NCBI RefSeq assembly: GCF_900291975.1 | Contig: NZ_OMPN01000001.1 | Coordinates: forward strand, 1,178,001 to 1,242,000 | Reading direction: 5' to 3' | Source: Agathobaculum massiliense | Lineage (GTDB): Bacteria; Bacillota; Clostridia; Oscillospirales; Butyricicoccaceae | Length of the DNA stretch: 64,000 nucleotides | Part shown: piece by piece, positions 15,633-32,039 of the stretch | Numbering within the stretch: the first letter of the stretch is position 1 | Layout: each line of letters begins with the position of its first letter | Notes under the pieces: generated by a model | Told to the model about the DNA's origin: nothing | Seen by the model: the letters and a program-made list of their open reading frames with translations, nothing else | The model's database searches: none | Position numbers and translations under genes: made by a program

Positions 15633-17102
15633 TTACCAGCCGAAGAACGGAAACGGGCTTTGGTAATACTGCGAACCATCATCCTGCTGGCTCTGCGCGT
15701 CCTGCGCAGCCGGATCCTCGCCCTCCAGGTCGTGCGCGTCCATCAGTGTGATCGTGACGTTGAGCCGTTTGCCGGTCGAAATGCGGTAAACCGTCAACGT
15801 GATCTTGTCGCCTGCCTTTTTGTCTTCCTTGACTTCATTCACGTCGTCCATGGTCGGGGTAGGCGTACCATCCACCGCTACAATGACGTCACCAACCTGC
15901 AGCCCCTCGTCGGCCGCCTTGGCGCGCGAGTCGATCGAGTCCACCTGCACGCCCGCGATGCTACCGTCCGCGGATTCCACATTATATCCCGAAATGCCGA
16001 TGGACGGACGCCCCGCGACATAGCCGTTGACAATCAGCTCATCGACGACCTCCTTGGCCATGTTGATCGGGATGGCGAAGCCCATGCCCTCGATCGACGC
16101 CTCGCTGAACGCATTGCTCGAAAGCTTGGCAGAGGTAATGCCGACCACCTGCCCGTATTTGTTAATCAGCGCGCCGCCCGAGTTGCCCGGGTTAATAGAA
16201 GCGTCGGTCTGGATCAGGGTCATCACGCGGTCGTTGATGGTCACGTCGCGGTTGATCGCGGAAATGCGGCCGCCCGTGATCGTGTTGGCAAACTGCACGC
16301 CGCCGGGCGAACCGAGCGCGTACGCATATTCGCCGGGCTGCAGCTCATCCGAATTGCCGAACTCGGCCGCCGTAAGCGTCCCGTCCGGCTCCACCTTGAG
16401 TACCGCCAGGTCGGTCTGCTCGTCCGTGCCGATGATCTCGGCCGGCATCTGCGTCCCGTCGCTGAGTTGGACCATCACCTGCTCCGCGTCCTCGACAACA
16501 TGGTTATTGGTGATGATGTACCCGTCCTCGCTCATGATAACGCCCGACCCGCTGCCACCGGTCGCAATGACCGATACGATCGACGGGCTTACTTTTTTGT
16601 AGATCTCCTCGCCCGCCAGACCGTTGACCACGTCGTAATTATCCGGATCGTATTCCGGCGTGTCGGATATCTGCACGGTGGGCATGCTGCCCGCCGTGGT
16701 GCCGCCTCCCGCAGGCGCGCCGCCGTTATTGGAAACGATATGCCCGATCACCGCACCGCCTGCAAACAGCAGGCAGGCCGCCGCGACGCTGCACAGGCCG
16801 ATGACAATGCCCTTCCCGCGCCCTTTCTTCTTTTTCGGCGGCTGCGGCTGGCCGGCCGGTTCGGCATGCGGCGCCTGGTATGGGGCCTGGTACGCTGGAT
16901 GCTGCACCGGCGTCTGGTACGGAGTGCGCGGTTCTTCGGCGCGCGGCGCGCCGGATGCCTGCGGCTCTTCCCGCGGCGTCTCCTGCGTTCCCTGAGCCGG
17001 CTGTGCTGGCGTTTCATTCTGCGGCTCCATAACGGGCTGCTGCGGTTCAGTATGGTCATCGCCGCCCGGGGCCGGCGTATAGTTGTTATTGAAGTCGTCC
17101 AT
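15633..17102 (-). CDS. htrA: HtrA/DegP-type membrane-anchored serine protease
   Basis: 489 aa. A Pro/Glu/Gln-rich cytoplasmic N-terminus (residues 1-89) and KKKKGRGKG lead into one membrane helix (about 98-122). The extracellular trypsin-like domain carries His201 (IITNNHVVEDA), Asp231 (QTDLAVLKV) and Ser308 (NPGNSGGALI). A C-terminal PDZ domain (about 375-470) includes PSIGISGYNV and VGDVIVAVDGTPTPTMDD. It degrades or refolds damaged exported proteins. The gene lies directly downstream of a two-component system on the same strand but behind its own promoter, whose triple 11-bp repeat matches the sRNA cluster at 31.4-32.0 kb exactly. Confidence 0.95.
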   Translation of the reverse strand: MDDFNNNYTPAPGGDDHTEPQQPVMEPQNETPAQPAQGTQETPREEPQASGAPRAEEPRTPYQTPVQHPAYQAPYQAPHAEPAGQPQPPKKKKGRGKGIVIGLCSVAAACLLFAGGAVIGHIVSNNGGAPAGGGTTAGSMPTVQISDTPEYDPDNYDVVNGLAGEEIYKKVSPSIVSVIATGGSGSGVIMSEDGYIITNNHVVEDAEQVMVQLSDGTQMPAEIIGTDEQTDLAVLKVEPDGTLTAAEFGNSDELQPGEYAYALGSPGGVQFANTITGGRISAINRDVTINDRVMTLIQTDASINPGNSGGALINKYGQVVGITSAKLSSNAFSEASIEGMGFAIPINMAKEVVDELIVNGYVAGRPSIGISGYNVESADGSIAGVQVDSIDSRAKAADEGLQVGDVIVAVDGTPTPTMDDVNEVKEDKKAGDKITLTVYRISTGKRLNVTITLMDAHDLEGEDPAAQDAQSQQDDGSQYYQSPFPFFGW

Positions 17103-17134: not shown

Positions 17135-17188
17135 ATTCTACCCCGCCATTGTGGCAGTTTGTTGAAAACAATATGAACAAATCATGAA
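17135..17188 (-). promoter_or_regulatory. htrA promoter with triple 11-bp TTCA repeat
   Basis: In plus-strand terms the -10 is ATTCTA (17135-17140; TAGAAT on the minus strand) and TGAA half-sites begin at 17163, 17174 and 17185. Half-site offsets from the -10 are 28, 39 and 50, the same three numbers as in each of the three sRNA promoters at 31.5-32.04 kb. There is no good -35 box, so activation by an OmpR-family regulator binding direct repeats is likely. Confidence 0.75.
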
Positions 17189-17251: not shown

Positions 17252-18703
17252 TCATTGTTTGCTGCCCGGCAGCTGCGGCGGGGCCAGCGGCAGCGTAAAC
17301 GAGAACTCGGTTTCCCCGTCATCCGAACGGACGGAAATCTCCCCGCCGTGCAGGTTGATGATGTTTTTGACGATATACAGCCCCAGCCCCGCCCCTGTCT
17401 TGTCCAAGGAGCGCGAGCGGTCGGCCTTGTAAAAGCGGTCGAACACATGCGGCAGCTCCTCCGCCGAAATACCCGCGCCCGTGTTGCTGATGGAAAAGGC
17501 GCAGAACGTCCCCTCCGGATGGGCGCGCAGCGTGAGCCGGCCGCCCTCATTGATGAATTTGACCGCGTTGTCCACCAGGTTATATACCACGCGGTACAGA
17601 TGGTCGCGATCACCCATGACCATCAGCCGGTCGTCCAGCTCGCACGCTACGTCGAGCCGCTTCTTTTCAATCTTCTGCTCGAACGAAAGGATGATCTGGC
17701 TGGTCATCTCGGAAAAATCGAACGGCGCGGGCGCAAGCAGCAACTCTCCCGACTGTATCTTGGCCGCATCCAGCATGCGGTTCACCATGCGGGACAGGCG
17801 GCGCGTCTCCTCGGCAATGATGCGCAGGTATTTGTCATGCTGGTCGGGGGGGATGGTGCCGTCGATCATCCCATCCACAAATCCGCCGATCGTCGTCATC
17901 GGGGTCTTGAACTCGTGGCTGACGTTGGAGATGAAGCCGCGCGTCAGCTCCTCGAGCTGGTTCAGGTCGCGCGCCATGTTATTGAACGACACCGCCAGCT
18001 CGTCTATCTCATACGAACGGTTGTCCTCTGGCACGCGCACATCAAAATTGCCGGCCGCGAATTCCTTCGCCGCCGCCGCGATCACCTTGAGCGGGCGGGT
18101 GACATGCTGCGAAATGATAAACGAAATAATCAGCAGGACCACCAGCGTAATCAGCAGGATCAGCACCAGGGTCTGTGTGGAGTGGCGCACCACGCCCGCG
18201 GTCTCCGGGTCCTGCGCGGAGACAAACACCAGAGCGGTAATCTCACCCGTCTCATTGATCACCGTCGTACCGACCGTATAGCTCGACGCCGCGGTCAGCA
18301 CGCCGAGCGACCCGACCGCGGCATACGTGCCGGATGTGCGCACCTGGCTGGTGACCTCGGGCGGAATCATATAGCCTGGCATGGTGTAGGCCGTTCCATC
18401 CGGCGCGGCGGCCATCTGGATGATACCGTCCTCATCCGTGACCAGCACGGTGATGGCGTCCTCCTTGGCAACGCGCGCGATCGAAAGGATGTAAAACTGC
18501 TCGAACTCCTCCGAGGTGCTGCCGCGCAGCAGCTCGGTCTGCTCCGCGATGCTCTTCACGGTCGTGCGCAGCTCGGTCTGCTTGGCGGAAAGCGCGTAGT
18601 TGCTCATCTGATAGTAAAACACACCGCCCGCCATAGCAAACGCACATACGATCAGCACCAGGTGCGTCACATAGTTTTTAAAAAAAAAGCTGTGTCTGCC
18701 CAT
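17252..18703 (-). CDS. Sensor histidine kinase
   Basis: 483 aa. Membrane helix 1 is at about residues 12-32 and helix 2 at about 174-194 (TLVLILLITLVVLLIISFII), enclosing a 140-residue extracytoplasmic sensor. A HAMP linker follows, then the phospho-acceptor motif FISNVSHEFKTPMTTIGG, then the ATPase boxes N (VVYNLVDNAVKFI), G1 (ISNTGAGIS), F (FDRFYKADRS) and G2 (TGAGLGLYIVKNI). It should autophosphorylate and pass phosphate to the regulator encoded 3 bp upstream. The signal is unknown; the htrA neighbour argues for envelope stress. Confidence 0.95.
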   Translation of the reverse strand: MGRHSFFFKNYVTHLVLIVCAFAMAGGVFYYQMSNYALSAKQTELRTTVKSIAEQTELLRGSTSEEFEQFYILSIARVAKEDAITVLVTDEDGIIQMAAAPDGTAYTMPGYMIPPEVTSQVRTSGTYAAVGSLGVLTAASSYTVGTTVINETGEITALVFVSAQDPETAGVVRHSTQTLVLILLITLVVLLIISFIISQHVTRPLKVIAAAAKEFAAGNFDVRVPEDNRSYEIDELAVSFNNMARDLNQLEELTRGFISNVSHEFKTPMTTIGGFVDGMIDGTIPPDQHDKYLRIIAEETRRLSRMVNRMLDAAKIQSGELLLAPAPFDFSEMTSQIILSFEQKIEKKRLDVACELDDRLMVMGDRDHLYRVVYNLVDNAVKFINEGGRLTLRAHPEGTFCAFSISNTGAGISAEELPHVFDRFYKADRSRSLDKTGAGLGLYIVKNIINLHGGEISVRSDDGETEFSFTLPLAPPQLPGSKQ

Positions 18704-18706
18704 CGC

Positions 18707-19387
18707 TTACTCCTTAGTCTCGAACTTGTATCCCACGCCCCAGACCGTTTTCAGCTCCCATTTATCCGAAACGCCCTCCAGCTTTTCGCGCAGGCGCTTG
18801 ACATGTACATCCACCGTGCGGGTATCGCCGAAGTAATCGAAGCCCCACACATCGTCAAGCAGCTGCGCACGCGTAAACACGCGGTTGGGGCTGGACGCGA
18901 GGTAGTACAGCAGCTCGATCTCCTTGGGCGGCGCGTCCACACGCTTGCCGCGGATGACCAGGTCATAGGCCTGCTTGTCGATCACCAGGTTGTCGAAAGA
19001 CAGCTTCTCCGGCGCGTCATCCGGCGCCATGCGGCGGAACACCGCGCGCACGCGCGCGATGACCTCGGGCATTTCAAGCGGCTTTACGATATAGTCGTCC
19101 GCCCCCATCTCCAGACCGGAAACGCGGTCCGCGGTCTCGCCCTTCGCGGTCAGCATGATGATCGGCACATCGCTTTCCGCGCGGATCTCCTTGCAGACGG
19201 CCCAGCCGTCCATCACAGGCATCATCACGTCGAGCAGCAGCATGTCCGGCTTTTCGGACTTCCACTTTTTGATCCCCTCAACGCCGTTTTCCGCTTCTAT
19301 CACGGTATAGCCCTCCCGCTCCAGATAAAGACGGAGCAGCTCGCGGATATTCGCTTCATCTTCAACAATCAATATCTTTTTGGGCAT
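18707..19387 (-). CDS. OmpR/PhoB-family response regulator
   Basis: 226 aa. The receiver domain has ILIVEDEANIRELLRLYLE with the acidic pair, the phosphorylation Asp in MLLLDVMMPVMDG, MLTAKGE, and the switch Lys in DDYIVKPLEM. The winged helix has RVFTRAQLLDDVWGFDY, TVDVHVKRLREKLE and TVWGVGYKFE. Such regulators bind direct repeats with 10-11 bp period. I infer, but cannot prove, that the TTCA-N7-TTCA-N7-TTCA sites before htrA and the three sRNAs are its targets. Orthology to PhoP, WalR, ResD or CiaR cannot be decided by eye. Confidence 0.95.
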   Translation of the reverse strand: MPKKILIVEDEANIRELLRLYLEREGYTVIEAENGVEGIKKWKSEKPDMLLLDVMMPVMDGWAVCKEIRAESDVPIIMLTAKGETADRVSGLEMGADDYIVKPLEMPEVIARVRAVFRRMAPDDAPEKLSFDNLVIDKQAYDLVIRGKRVDAPPKEIELLYYLASSPNRVFTRAQLLDDVWGFDYFGDTRTVDVHVKRLREKLEGVSDKWELKTVWGVGYKFETKE

Positions 19388-19419: not shown

Positions 19420-19462
19420 ATTATACTGCTTTCCATTCGAAAAAGCATTAACAATCTGTAAA
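19420..19462 (-). promoter_or_regulatory. Two-component operon promoter with partial TTCA-type repeats
   Basis: The minus-strand -10 is TATAAT (19420-19425). In plus-strand terms TTAA and TAAA start at 19448 and 19459, which are offsets 28 and 39 from the -10, the spacing of the half-sites at htrA and the sRNAs. The third position does not match. This could be a weak autoregulatory site. Confidence 0.4.
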
Positions 19463-31373: not shown

Positions 31374-31512
31374 AAAGCGCCGCTGCCTCGTTGGGGGAAA
31401 CGAGACAACGGCGCTTTGCCAGTTCACTACACAGATTCAAAAAAAGGGGGTAAAAGAGAAATAAAAAGATCGGTAGGCTGTCAGCTTCGGGATTGCGGCT
31501 TCCCTTGCTGAC
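31374..31512 (-). ncRNA. Candidate tandem sRNA A (C-rich, promoter-proximal hairpin)
   Basis: Predicted transcript of about 139 nt running from 31512 down to the terminator at 31374-31417. Near the 5' end GTCAGC pairs with GCTGAC around an inner GGGA/TCCC. A pyrimidine-rich linker with TTTTACCCCC follows. The terminator stem is AAAGCGCCG/CGGCGCTTT-like, with TTTCCCCC in its loop. Copy C has the same 5' core, but its outer stem is GTCGAT/ATCGAC: paired changes that preserve pairing, good evidence for RNA rather than protein. No start codon with a ribosome-binding site lies inside. Confidence 0.7.
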
Positions 31513-31518
31513 GTATTC

Positions 31519-31572
31519 AGTATACCGCGCTTTGCCGCGGAATGTGTGAATAGATTTTGAACAGGCTGTGAA
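31519..31572 (-). promoter_or_regulatory. sRNA A promoter: three 11-bp TTCA repeats plus TATACT
   Basis: Plus-strand coordinates: AGTATA (TATACT on minus) at 31519, and TGAA half-sites at 31547, 31558 and 31569, offsets 28, 39 and 50. On the minus strand these read TTCACA, TTCAAA, TTCACA. Confidence 0.75.
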
Positions 31573-31615
31573 AGATTTTTGGCCGTCCGTTCCAGCGCTT
31601 CCAGTAAACGGGAAA

Positions 31616-31751
31616 CGCCCGGCCTCCATGGGGGAAATGGAAGCCGGGCGCAGCCGTTGCTCTCAAAAAGAGGATAAAAGAAAAGATGAAAGAAAGGGGA
31701 AATAGGTGTAATAAGAGGTTGTCTTCCAGGAACGTTCCAATTCCTTTCGAC
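31616..31751 (-). ncRNA. Candidate tandem sRNA B
   Basis: Predicted transcript of about 136 nt from 31751. The 5' hairpin (AGGAA/TTCCT inside GTC/GAC) differs in sequence from copies A and C but keeps the position. The linker is pyrimidine-rich with TTTCCCC. The terminator (31616-31650) has stem CGCCCGGC/GCCGGGCG and the shared TTTCCCCC loop. The T-run after it is short (TTT), so termination may be less efficient and read-through toward copy A is possible. Confidence 0.6.
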
Positions 31752-31757
31752 GGTTAT

Positions 31758-31811
31758 AGTATACCGCAGCCCGCGCCCGAATATGTGAATAACTTTTGAA
31801 CAGACTTTAAA
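31758..31811 (-). promoter_or_regulatory. sRNA B promoter: 11-bp TTCA repeats plus TATACT
   Basis: AGTATA at 31758; TGAA at 31786 and 31797, and a degenerate TAAA at 31808, again offsets 28, 39 and 50. Confidence 0.7.
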
Positions 31812-31846
31812 AGGTTTTTTACAAAGCGCTTCCTCTGCGGAACGGG

Positions 31847-31979
31847 AAAAAGCCCCGGTTCCATGGGGGAAACGGAACCAGGGCTTTTTCGGTCATTTCA
31901 CAAAATAAAGGGGGGTAAAAGAGAAATAAAAGATCGGTAGGCTGCTTGTCGATTCGGGATTGCGGCTTCCCTTATCGAC
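31847..31979 (-). ncRNA. Candidate tandem sRNA C
   Basis: Predicted transcript of about 133 nt from 31979. The 5' hairpin is TGTCGAT/ATCGACA around GGGA/TCCC. The next stretch, AGCCTACCGATCTTTT, is shared with copy A, then TTTTACCCCCC. The terminator (31847-31889) has a 5'-AAAAAGCCC type stem, loop TTTCCCCC and a long T-run. It is the first copy downstream of dnaI, 69 bp past its stop. Confidence 0.7.
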
Positions 31980-31985
31980 ATGCTT

Positions 31986-32039
31986 AGTATACCCCATTTC
32001 CCCCGCGAATATATGAACAGAATTTGAACGTCCTGTGAA
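31986..32039 (-). promoter_or_regulatory. sRNA C promoter: three 11-bp TTCA repeats plus TATACT
   Basis: AGTATA at 31986; TGAA at 32014, 32025 and 32036 (offsets 28, 39 and 50). All three half-sites are intact. Confidence 0.75.

Follow-up and report, generated by a model that had tools for sequence, protein, structure and literature searches.

A two-component system with HtrA as the candidate activator of three predicted tandem C-rich small RNA genes in Agathobaculum

The sodC-dnaI gap and its cassettes

The window, the whole stretch of 64,000 nt analyzed here, belongs to an Agathobaculum genome of 3.2 Mb in two contigs. A gap of 686 bp separates the end of sodC (31361, plus strand) from the stop codon of dnaI (32048, minus strand), and bears three cassettes on the minus strand, as a preliminary description of this DNA had stated (Table 1). 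SodC was identified from Pfam, and dnaI is named by inference, from matches to IstB/DnaA-type ATPases and from a neighboring gene with a DnaB_2 domain. Each cassette opens with a phased promoter box and continues with a 5′ hairpin, which is weak in copy B, then a linker rich in pyrimidines and lastly a terminator. The terminator of copy A also sits where sodC ends. With the starts placed from the position of the −10 element, the predicted RNAs are about 136-143 nt long, overlapping with, but slightly exceeding, the 130-140 nt or so of the preliminary description.

Table 1. Features of the small RNA (sRNA) array and of the regulator-kinase-HtrA module, in window positions
Feature	Position	Strand	Basis
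Copy C regulator box, TTCA-N7-TTCA-N7-TTCA	32012..32039	-	pattern search, own genome and genus
Copy C -10 element TATACT	31986..31991	-	sequence, genus-wide box search
Copy C predicted sRNA, ~136 nt	31846..31981	-	fold z -6.6; kept in relatives
Copy C 5′ hairpin, GTCGAT/ATCGAC enclosing GGGA-AGCCGCAA-TCCC	31948..31979	-	covariation
Copy C terminator, loop GTTTCCCCCAT	31846..31890	-	cassette collection, fold
Copy B regulator box, with TTTA as its degenerate first half-site	31784..31811	-	pattern search
Copy B -10 element TATACT	31758..31763	-	sequence
Copy B predicted sRNA, ~143 nt, 5′ half diverged, 5′ hairpin weak	31612..31754	-	type B alignment, fold
Copy A regulator box	31545..31572	-	pattern search
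Copy A -10 element TATACT	31519..31524	-	sequence
Copy A predicted sRNA, ~141 nt	31374..31514	-	fold z -5.0; kept in relatives
Copy A 5′ hairpin	31512-31480	-	fold
Copy A terminator, loop TTTCCCCC	31417-31374	-	fold
Regulator-operon promoter, TTTACAGATTGTTAA-N22-TATAAT, half-sites 2 and 3 in register	19420..19462	-	box search
OmpR/PhoB-type response regulator, proposed sRNA activator	18707..19387	-	similarity, orthologs, shared box
Sensor histidine kinase (HAMP, HisKA, HATPase)	17252..18703	-	domain matches
htrA promoter, three TTCA half-sites and TAGAAT, same register	17135..17188	-	box search
HtrA/DegP-type serine protease (trypsin-like and PDZ)	15633..17102	-	domain matches

The promoter geometry was found as first described. 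The TTCA half-sites follow one another with an exact period of 11 bp, at 32039/32028/32017 in copy C, 31572/31561/31550 in copy A and 31800/31789 in copy B, where the remaining half-site is the degenerate TTTA at 31811. In all three copies, TATACT begins 26 nt past the start of the third half-site. When one mismatch was allowed, the three-half-site pattern occurred three times in the 3.2-Mb genome, only at the three sRNA cassettes, and the reversed pattern did not occur anywhere in it. The unit from the box to the −10 element measured exactly 54 nt in all 80 cassettes of the collection described below, for which the search pattern (TTCA-like half-sites and a TATANT −10 element) had allowed 50-57 nt in all. 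Their consensus is TTCAcAg.ctgTTcAaaa.ctgTTCAcA, followed by 20 nt to TATACT.

The full-length folds scored z values of −5.0, −3.9 and −6.6 for copies A, B and C, respectively. Copies A and C form two stem-loops with a linker that is unpaired apart from short weak pairings, and copy B does so weakly. The 5′ hairpin, proposed earlier for every copy, is therefore seen in A and C; in B it is weak (z −1.1), is missing from the full-length minimum-energy fold and finds support only in B-type relatives. A 35-nt hairpin fragment of copy C, folded alone without its outer pairs, was unremarkable (z −1.4), and the full-length fold of this copy holds the complete hairpin. The outer stems of A and C covary as reported, with GTCAGC/GCTGAC in the former and GTCGAT/ATCGAC in the latter. 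The terminator loop TTTCCCCC is shared by all three copies; the terminator stems, which had been called unrelated, are instead diverged, agreeing at 80% of 40 nt in B and C and at 77% of 26 nt in A and C.

Conservation within and beyond the genus

A DNA search of 40 genomes returned matching DNA in all 24 other genomes of the genus and in none of the 15 genomes from other families of the order. We collected 80 distinct cassettes from 28 loci (the own genome, named contigs and relatives), a lower bound because cassettes sharing all of their first 80 nt were counted once and because the pattern misses boxes with other letters. The number of sRNA promoters per genome ranges from two to five (25 genomes, as read from the table), with some of the low counts near contig ends. 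The conservation in relatives that the preliminary description had anticipated extends genus-wide to the promoter box, the 5′ hairpin, the linker and the C-loop terminator. In A. butyriciproducens (L032), the region after dnaI has no array and three model matches lie elsewhere in the genome, indicating that the array is independent of dnaI.

The cassettes fall into type A/C (56 aligned) and type B (22 aligned), with two of the 80, in L106 and L047, in neither alignment. In type A/C, the hairpin core GGGA-AGCCGCAA-nCCC and the linker CTACCGATCTTTTATTTCTCTTTTACCCCC are both nearly invariant. Type B has another linker, often with CACCTTTT-like pieces. Among the 56 type A/C rows, the pairs in the outer stem are GC in 40 and AU in 12 (columns 11-38), AU in 34, GC in 15 and GU in 3 (columns 12-37), and UA in 27, UG in 13 and CG in 11 (columns 13-36). 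At these three pairs, both partners have changed in 11-15 rows, and 4-5 rows are broken or gapped. On average, 5.74 of the 6 pairs of the 5′ stem form, and the highest mean reached when the arms were shuffled 2000 times among cassettes was 5.46; this test comprises the 57 of 80 cassettes that the script could parse and leaves sequence relatedness in place. In the type B stem, seven of eight pairs show changes on both sides. The C-runs are widespread. The terminator ends within 110-160 nt in 73 cassettes (the other 7 of the 80 were dropped); among these 73, the terminator loop region contains CCCC in 64 and CCCCC in 59, and the linker contains CCCC in 62.

A model search of the kind proposed in the preliminary description, built on the 5′ part of the type A/C RNAs with the promoter excluded, gave five weak matches (E 1.6e-4 to 4.8e-3; 62 genomes) in other genera of the family. 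Phased half-sites and a correctly placed TATACT were found at all five, the first half-site being variable. Because the model contains no promoter, the boxes confirm these matches independently. When the model was run across the order, two matches outside the family (G224 and G269) had neither box nor hairpin and were judged to be false. An order-wide search for the box found it in 24 of 245 genomes, namely 6/6 of the genus, 10/14 of other genera of the family and 8/225 outside the family, with no match of the reversed pattern. The RNA adjoins a dnaI-like gene in eight of the ten family loci fetched, as judged by eye. The sRNA, its box included, thus recurs in other genera of the family.

Outside the family, a transcript-like region in G145 and G184, which belong to one genus and are not independent, combines a C-rich linker with a hairpin whose loop is AGCCGCA, and the sRNA is perhaps present in one other family. 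The regions at seven further box matches outside the family (G104 twice, G172, G186, G191, G242 and G311) contained no sRNA-like sequence by eye.

The neighbors of the box were also noted at some of these loci. Near position 1501 of L158 and L157, two genomes of one genus in another family, the box and a hairpin with an AGCCGCA loop adjoin a lexA-like gene (named by eye). Near position 1501 of L171 and L174, within the family, the box precedes C-rich sRNA-like regions that adjoin not dnaI but genes whose protein products have signal-peptide-like starts.

Possible modes of action of the RNAs

The preliminary description had suggested target prediction with the C-runs as seeds. We computed pairing energies for 305 genes called crudely in the window and in 400 kb of the own genome, a biased set in that only genes with a Shine-Dalgarno-like site were kept. 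The type A/C linker scored −12.4 kcal/mol at starts, as compared to −8.6 kcal/mol inside genes and −13.9 (better) for shuffled seeds; the corresponding values for the type B linker were −12.4, −6.7 and −12.8. Both the linker and the terminator-loop seeds favor start regions over coding sequence, but no more than shuffled seeds do. Since shuffled seeds pair equally well or better, the preference supports an effect of base composition only. The 5′ loop piece showed no preference for start regions (−6.2 at starts versus −7.4 kcal/mol inside genes). We claim no target from this comparison.

Pairing of the C-runs with Shine-Dalgarno regions is plausible. In such a mechanism, the synthesis of selected proteins would fall because G-rich translation start regions would be bound by the pyrimidine-rich linker and by the CCCCC loop of the terminator, with the 5′ hairpin serving to protect the RNA and to present it.

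We give a minor, though appreciable, chance to the RNAs acting through a protein and without start pairing, for example by sequestering, as a sponge, an RNA-binding protein that contacts the AGCCGCAA loop or the linker. The near-invariance of both elements, the recurrence of the AGCCGCA loop in two genomes of another family and the lack of a sequence-specific excess of the seeds at start regions would all fit such a role. On the other hand, the C-runs of the linker and terminator loop fit the pairing design reported for LhrC (PMC4132741), and the unpaired linker resembles that of the csRNAs (PMC3091779).

A candidate regulator and its known counterparts

The preliminary description had read the cassettes as regulated by an OmpR-type protein, which it left unnamed. 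Consistent with this reading, the phased box also occurs at the promoters of an OmpR-family regulator operon and of the neighboring htrA gene. This module lies about 14 kb from the sRNA array in the window, and roughly 11-22 kb from it on those contigs of relatives that hold both. The promoter of the regulator operon has the sequence CTTTTACAGATTGTTAATGC, in which half-sites 2 and 3 keep the register of the sRNA promoters.

With up to three mismatches, the box was found at the htrA promoter in 23 of 25 genus genomes, with one match of the reversed control; G011 and G024 gave no match there. Across the 25 genomes, this search also returned the sRNA promoters, one more recurrent site and isolated matches. 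When half-sites 2 and 3 plus the −10 element were searched with up to one mismatch, the regulator's promoter was matched in 21 of 25 genomes, along with the sRNA promoters, ten other places and one reversed-control match; in three more genomes its box has a spacing longer by 1 nt. The regulator and kinase genes adjoin the htrA box in all 22 relatives fetched, and the HtrA start follows the box in 21, the contig ending there in the remaining one. The gene order is co-linear with the window in 20 relatives. The regulator has an ortholog with 91-99% identity in 23 of the 24 other genus genomes; in G024, which carries two sRNA promoters, none was found at the threshold used. A regulator of this kind is encoded in 194 of 245 genomes of the order (E ≤ 1e-75). 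Of 15 loci chosen by hand in other genera and families, 12 have the box before the regulator gene, and 12 have similarity to htrA nearby.

The two exceptions to this order are G022 (L085) and G010 (L094), where htrA is oriented divergently to the regulator operon and each promoter retains its box.

On the basis of the shared sequence elements, we propose this regulator as the candidate, and consider it probable that the regulator-kinase-HtrA envelope-stress system also drives the three tandem, C-rich sRNA genes. Each sRNA gene would have its own activator-dependent promoter, at which an OmpR-family regulator would bind two or three TTCA half-sites on one face of the DNA. These half-sites lie just upstream of, and overlap, the −35 position, and the bound regulator would recruit the polymerase to TATACT. 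The regulator is most likely the product of 18707-19387, acting with its kinase, and the shared, phased and conserved boxes suggest that it switches on its own operon and the neighboring htrA as well. HtrA systems elsewhere (PMC12826053) point to envelope or secretion stress as the possible signal. The boxes common to the sRNA genes, htrA and the regulator operon would then mean that stress leads to the joint synthesis of the HtrA protease and several C-rich sRNAs.

It is improbable, though deserving of consideration, that the sRNA genes are real and another OmpR-family regulator drives them, the boxes at htrA and the regulator operon being merely similar. The genome encodes 19 OmpR-type regulators, another of which could bind the same box. 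Control by PhoB, in response to phosphate, was considered because the TTCA box resembles Pho boxes. The repeat TTNANA-N5-TTNANA (N not G) is, however, absent from the 11.5-kb stretch around pstS, where phoU- and phoB-like genes were named partly by eye. Moreover, the promoter of 18707-19387 carries the box in register in most genus genomes, as do the majority of the hand-picked outside loci.

There is little to recommend the notion that the cassettes form a degenerate repeat, or serve as successive terminators for dnaI and sodC, and have no regulatory RNA function: the copies are tandem and one of their terminators lies at the end of sodC, but the promoter geometry is kept in 80 cassettes, the stems covary, the linkers are near-invariant, other genera have them and, in A. 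butyriciproducens, model matches lie away from dnaI. We rejected small peptides as the product, a most improbable reading, since despite frames of 27 codons in copy C and 25 codons in copy B, an open reading frame of at least 8 aa is absent in 36 of the 73 cassettes, a Shine-Dalgarno-like site precedes one in 0/73, and the linkers differ by single-base indels. The cassettes have no conserved coding frame; this, together with conservation, phasing, covariation and the shared box, was computed. We take them to form a real and new family of sRNAs, of a type already known, for which the candidate regulator is well supported.

A wider reading, which we hold only tentatively and judge doubtful at present, is that this system, widespread in the order, has its own ancient RNA arm, with AGCCGCA(A)-loop sRNAs across families that became arrayed in Agathobaculum. 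If so, the design would be general, and the conserved loop would have a further, undescribed function.

Another conserved ncRNA candidate, which is unannotated, was seen outside the window, at G000:C2:552886 downwards (L082, about 3387-3150, minus strand), between leuS-like and gyrB/parE-like genes (named by eye). Its promoter has elements resembling the half-sites, spaced in the same 11-bp register, and is followed by about 50 nt of nearly invariant sequence and by a terminator. This candidate is the second recurrent site of the box search at the three-mismatch threshold, seen in 12 of 25 genus genomes; its sequences are those of L082 and L107-L114. It had no Rfam family at E ≤ 0.1 in L107, L108 and L112, and may belong to the same regulon. 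In addition, a promoter containing GTTCACA, partly an inverted repeat, lies just upstream of a different OmpR-type regulator in G012 (C26:7202) and G017 (C5:39845, minus strand), and may mark another autoregulated system.

The preliminary description knew of no family with this combination of features, and we likewise found no plausible Rfam match and no description in the open-licence literature, as searched by titles and abstract starts. The window has no gathering match in Rfam. Permissive scans (L001, L082, L033, L106, L107, L108, L112, L165 and L182) gave weak matches below the gathering scores, to animal or plant miRNAs and other unrelated models, and none to LhrC. The same titles and abstract starts contained no description of small RNAs in Agathobaculum, or of a multicopy sRNA/two-component system in this order.

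The regulatory logic has counterparts in other bacteria, among them Streptococcus, which belongs to a different bacterial order from the present host. The streptococcal csRNAs are several similar sRNAs under one response regulator, CiaR, which uses an 11-bp direct repeat; they have two stem-loops and an unpaired linker, for which start regions have been proposed as pairing partners (PMC3091779). CiaRH controls htrA as well in the pneumococcus (PMC12826053). The present system shares with the csRNAs the several sRNAs under one, here proposed, regulator, the 11-bp repeat, the two stem-loops with a linker and an htrA gene with the same box. It differs in the box, which is TTCAnA-N5 three times with 20 nt to the −10 element, in contrast to NTTAAG-N5-TTTAAG with 10 nt in the csRNAs (PMC3091779), in the loop AGCCGCAA and the linker sequence, and in the recognition helix, which is TVDVHVKRLREKL in the proposed regulator and VVEVYVSKVRKKL in CiaR (PMC3091779).

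In Listeria, LhrC1-5 are multicopy sRNAs under the envelope-stress system LisRK, with redundant CU-rich UCCC motifs in loop A, the linker and the terminator loop (PMC4132741), and htrA is reported under LisRK (PMC12826053). The present RNAs resemble LhrC in being multicopy, in their C-rich motifs in a single-stranded stretch and the terminator loop, and in their proposed control by a two-component system of the envelope-stress type. Unlike loop A of LhrC, the A/C-type 5′ loop is AGCCGCAA and not a CU-rich motif. CssRS of Bacillus subtilis lies directly upstream of the htrA gene that it induces (PMC12826053), and the adjacency of regulator, kinase and htrA is similar in the window and in 21 of the 22 fetched relatives; the available part of that account mentions no sRNAs for CssRS-htrA.

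If the wider, doubtful reading given above holds, this would be a third lineage, after CiaRH/csRNA and LisRK/LhrC, with a kinase for envelope stress that links a protease to anti-Shine-Dalgarno RNAs present in several copies. The locus, the proposed activator and the genus-wide alignment are open to direct tests. The present system would follow the same logic as CiaRH/csRNAs and LisRK/LhrC, and by the features tested its RNAs are members of neither RNA family. Our analysis also suggests that Streptococcus and Listeria are not alone in having the triad of an envelope-stress two-component system, HtrA and C-rich sRNAs in several copies, raising the question of whether it was inherited or evolved repeatedly.
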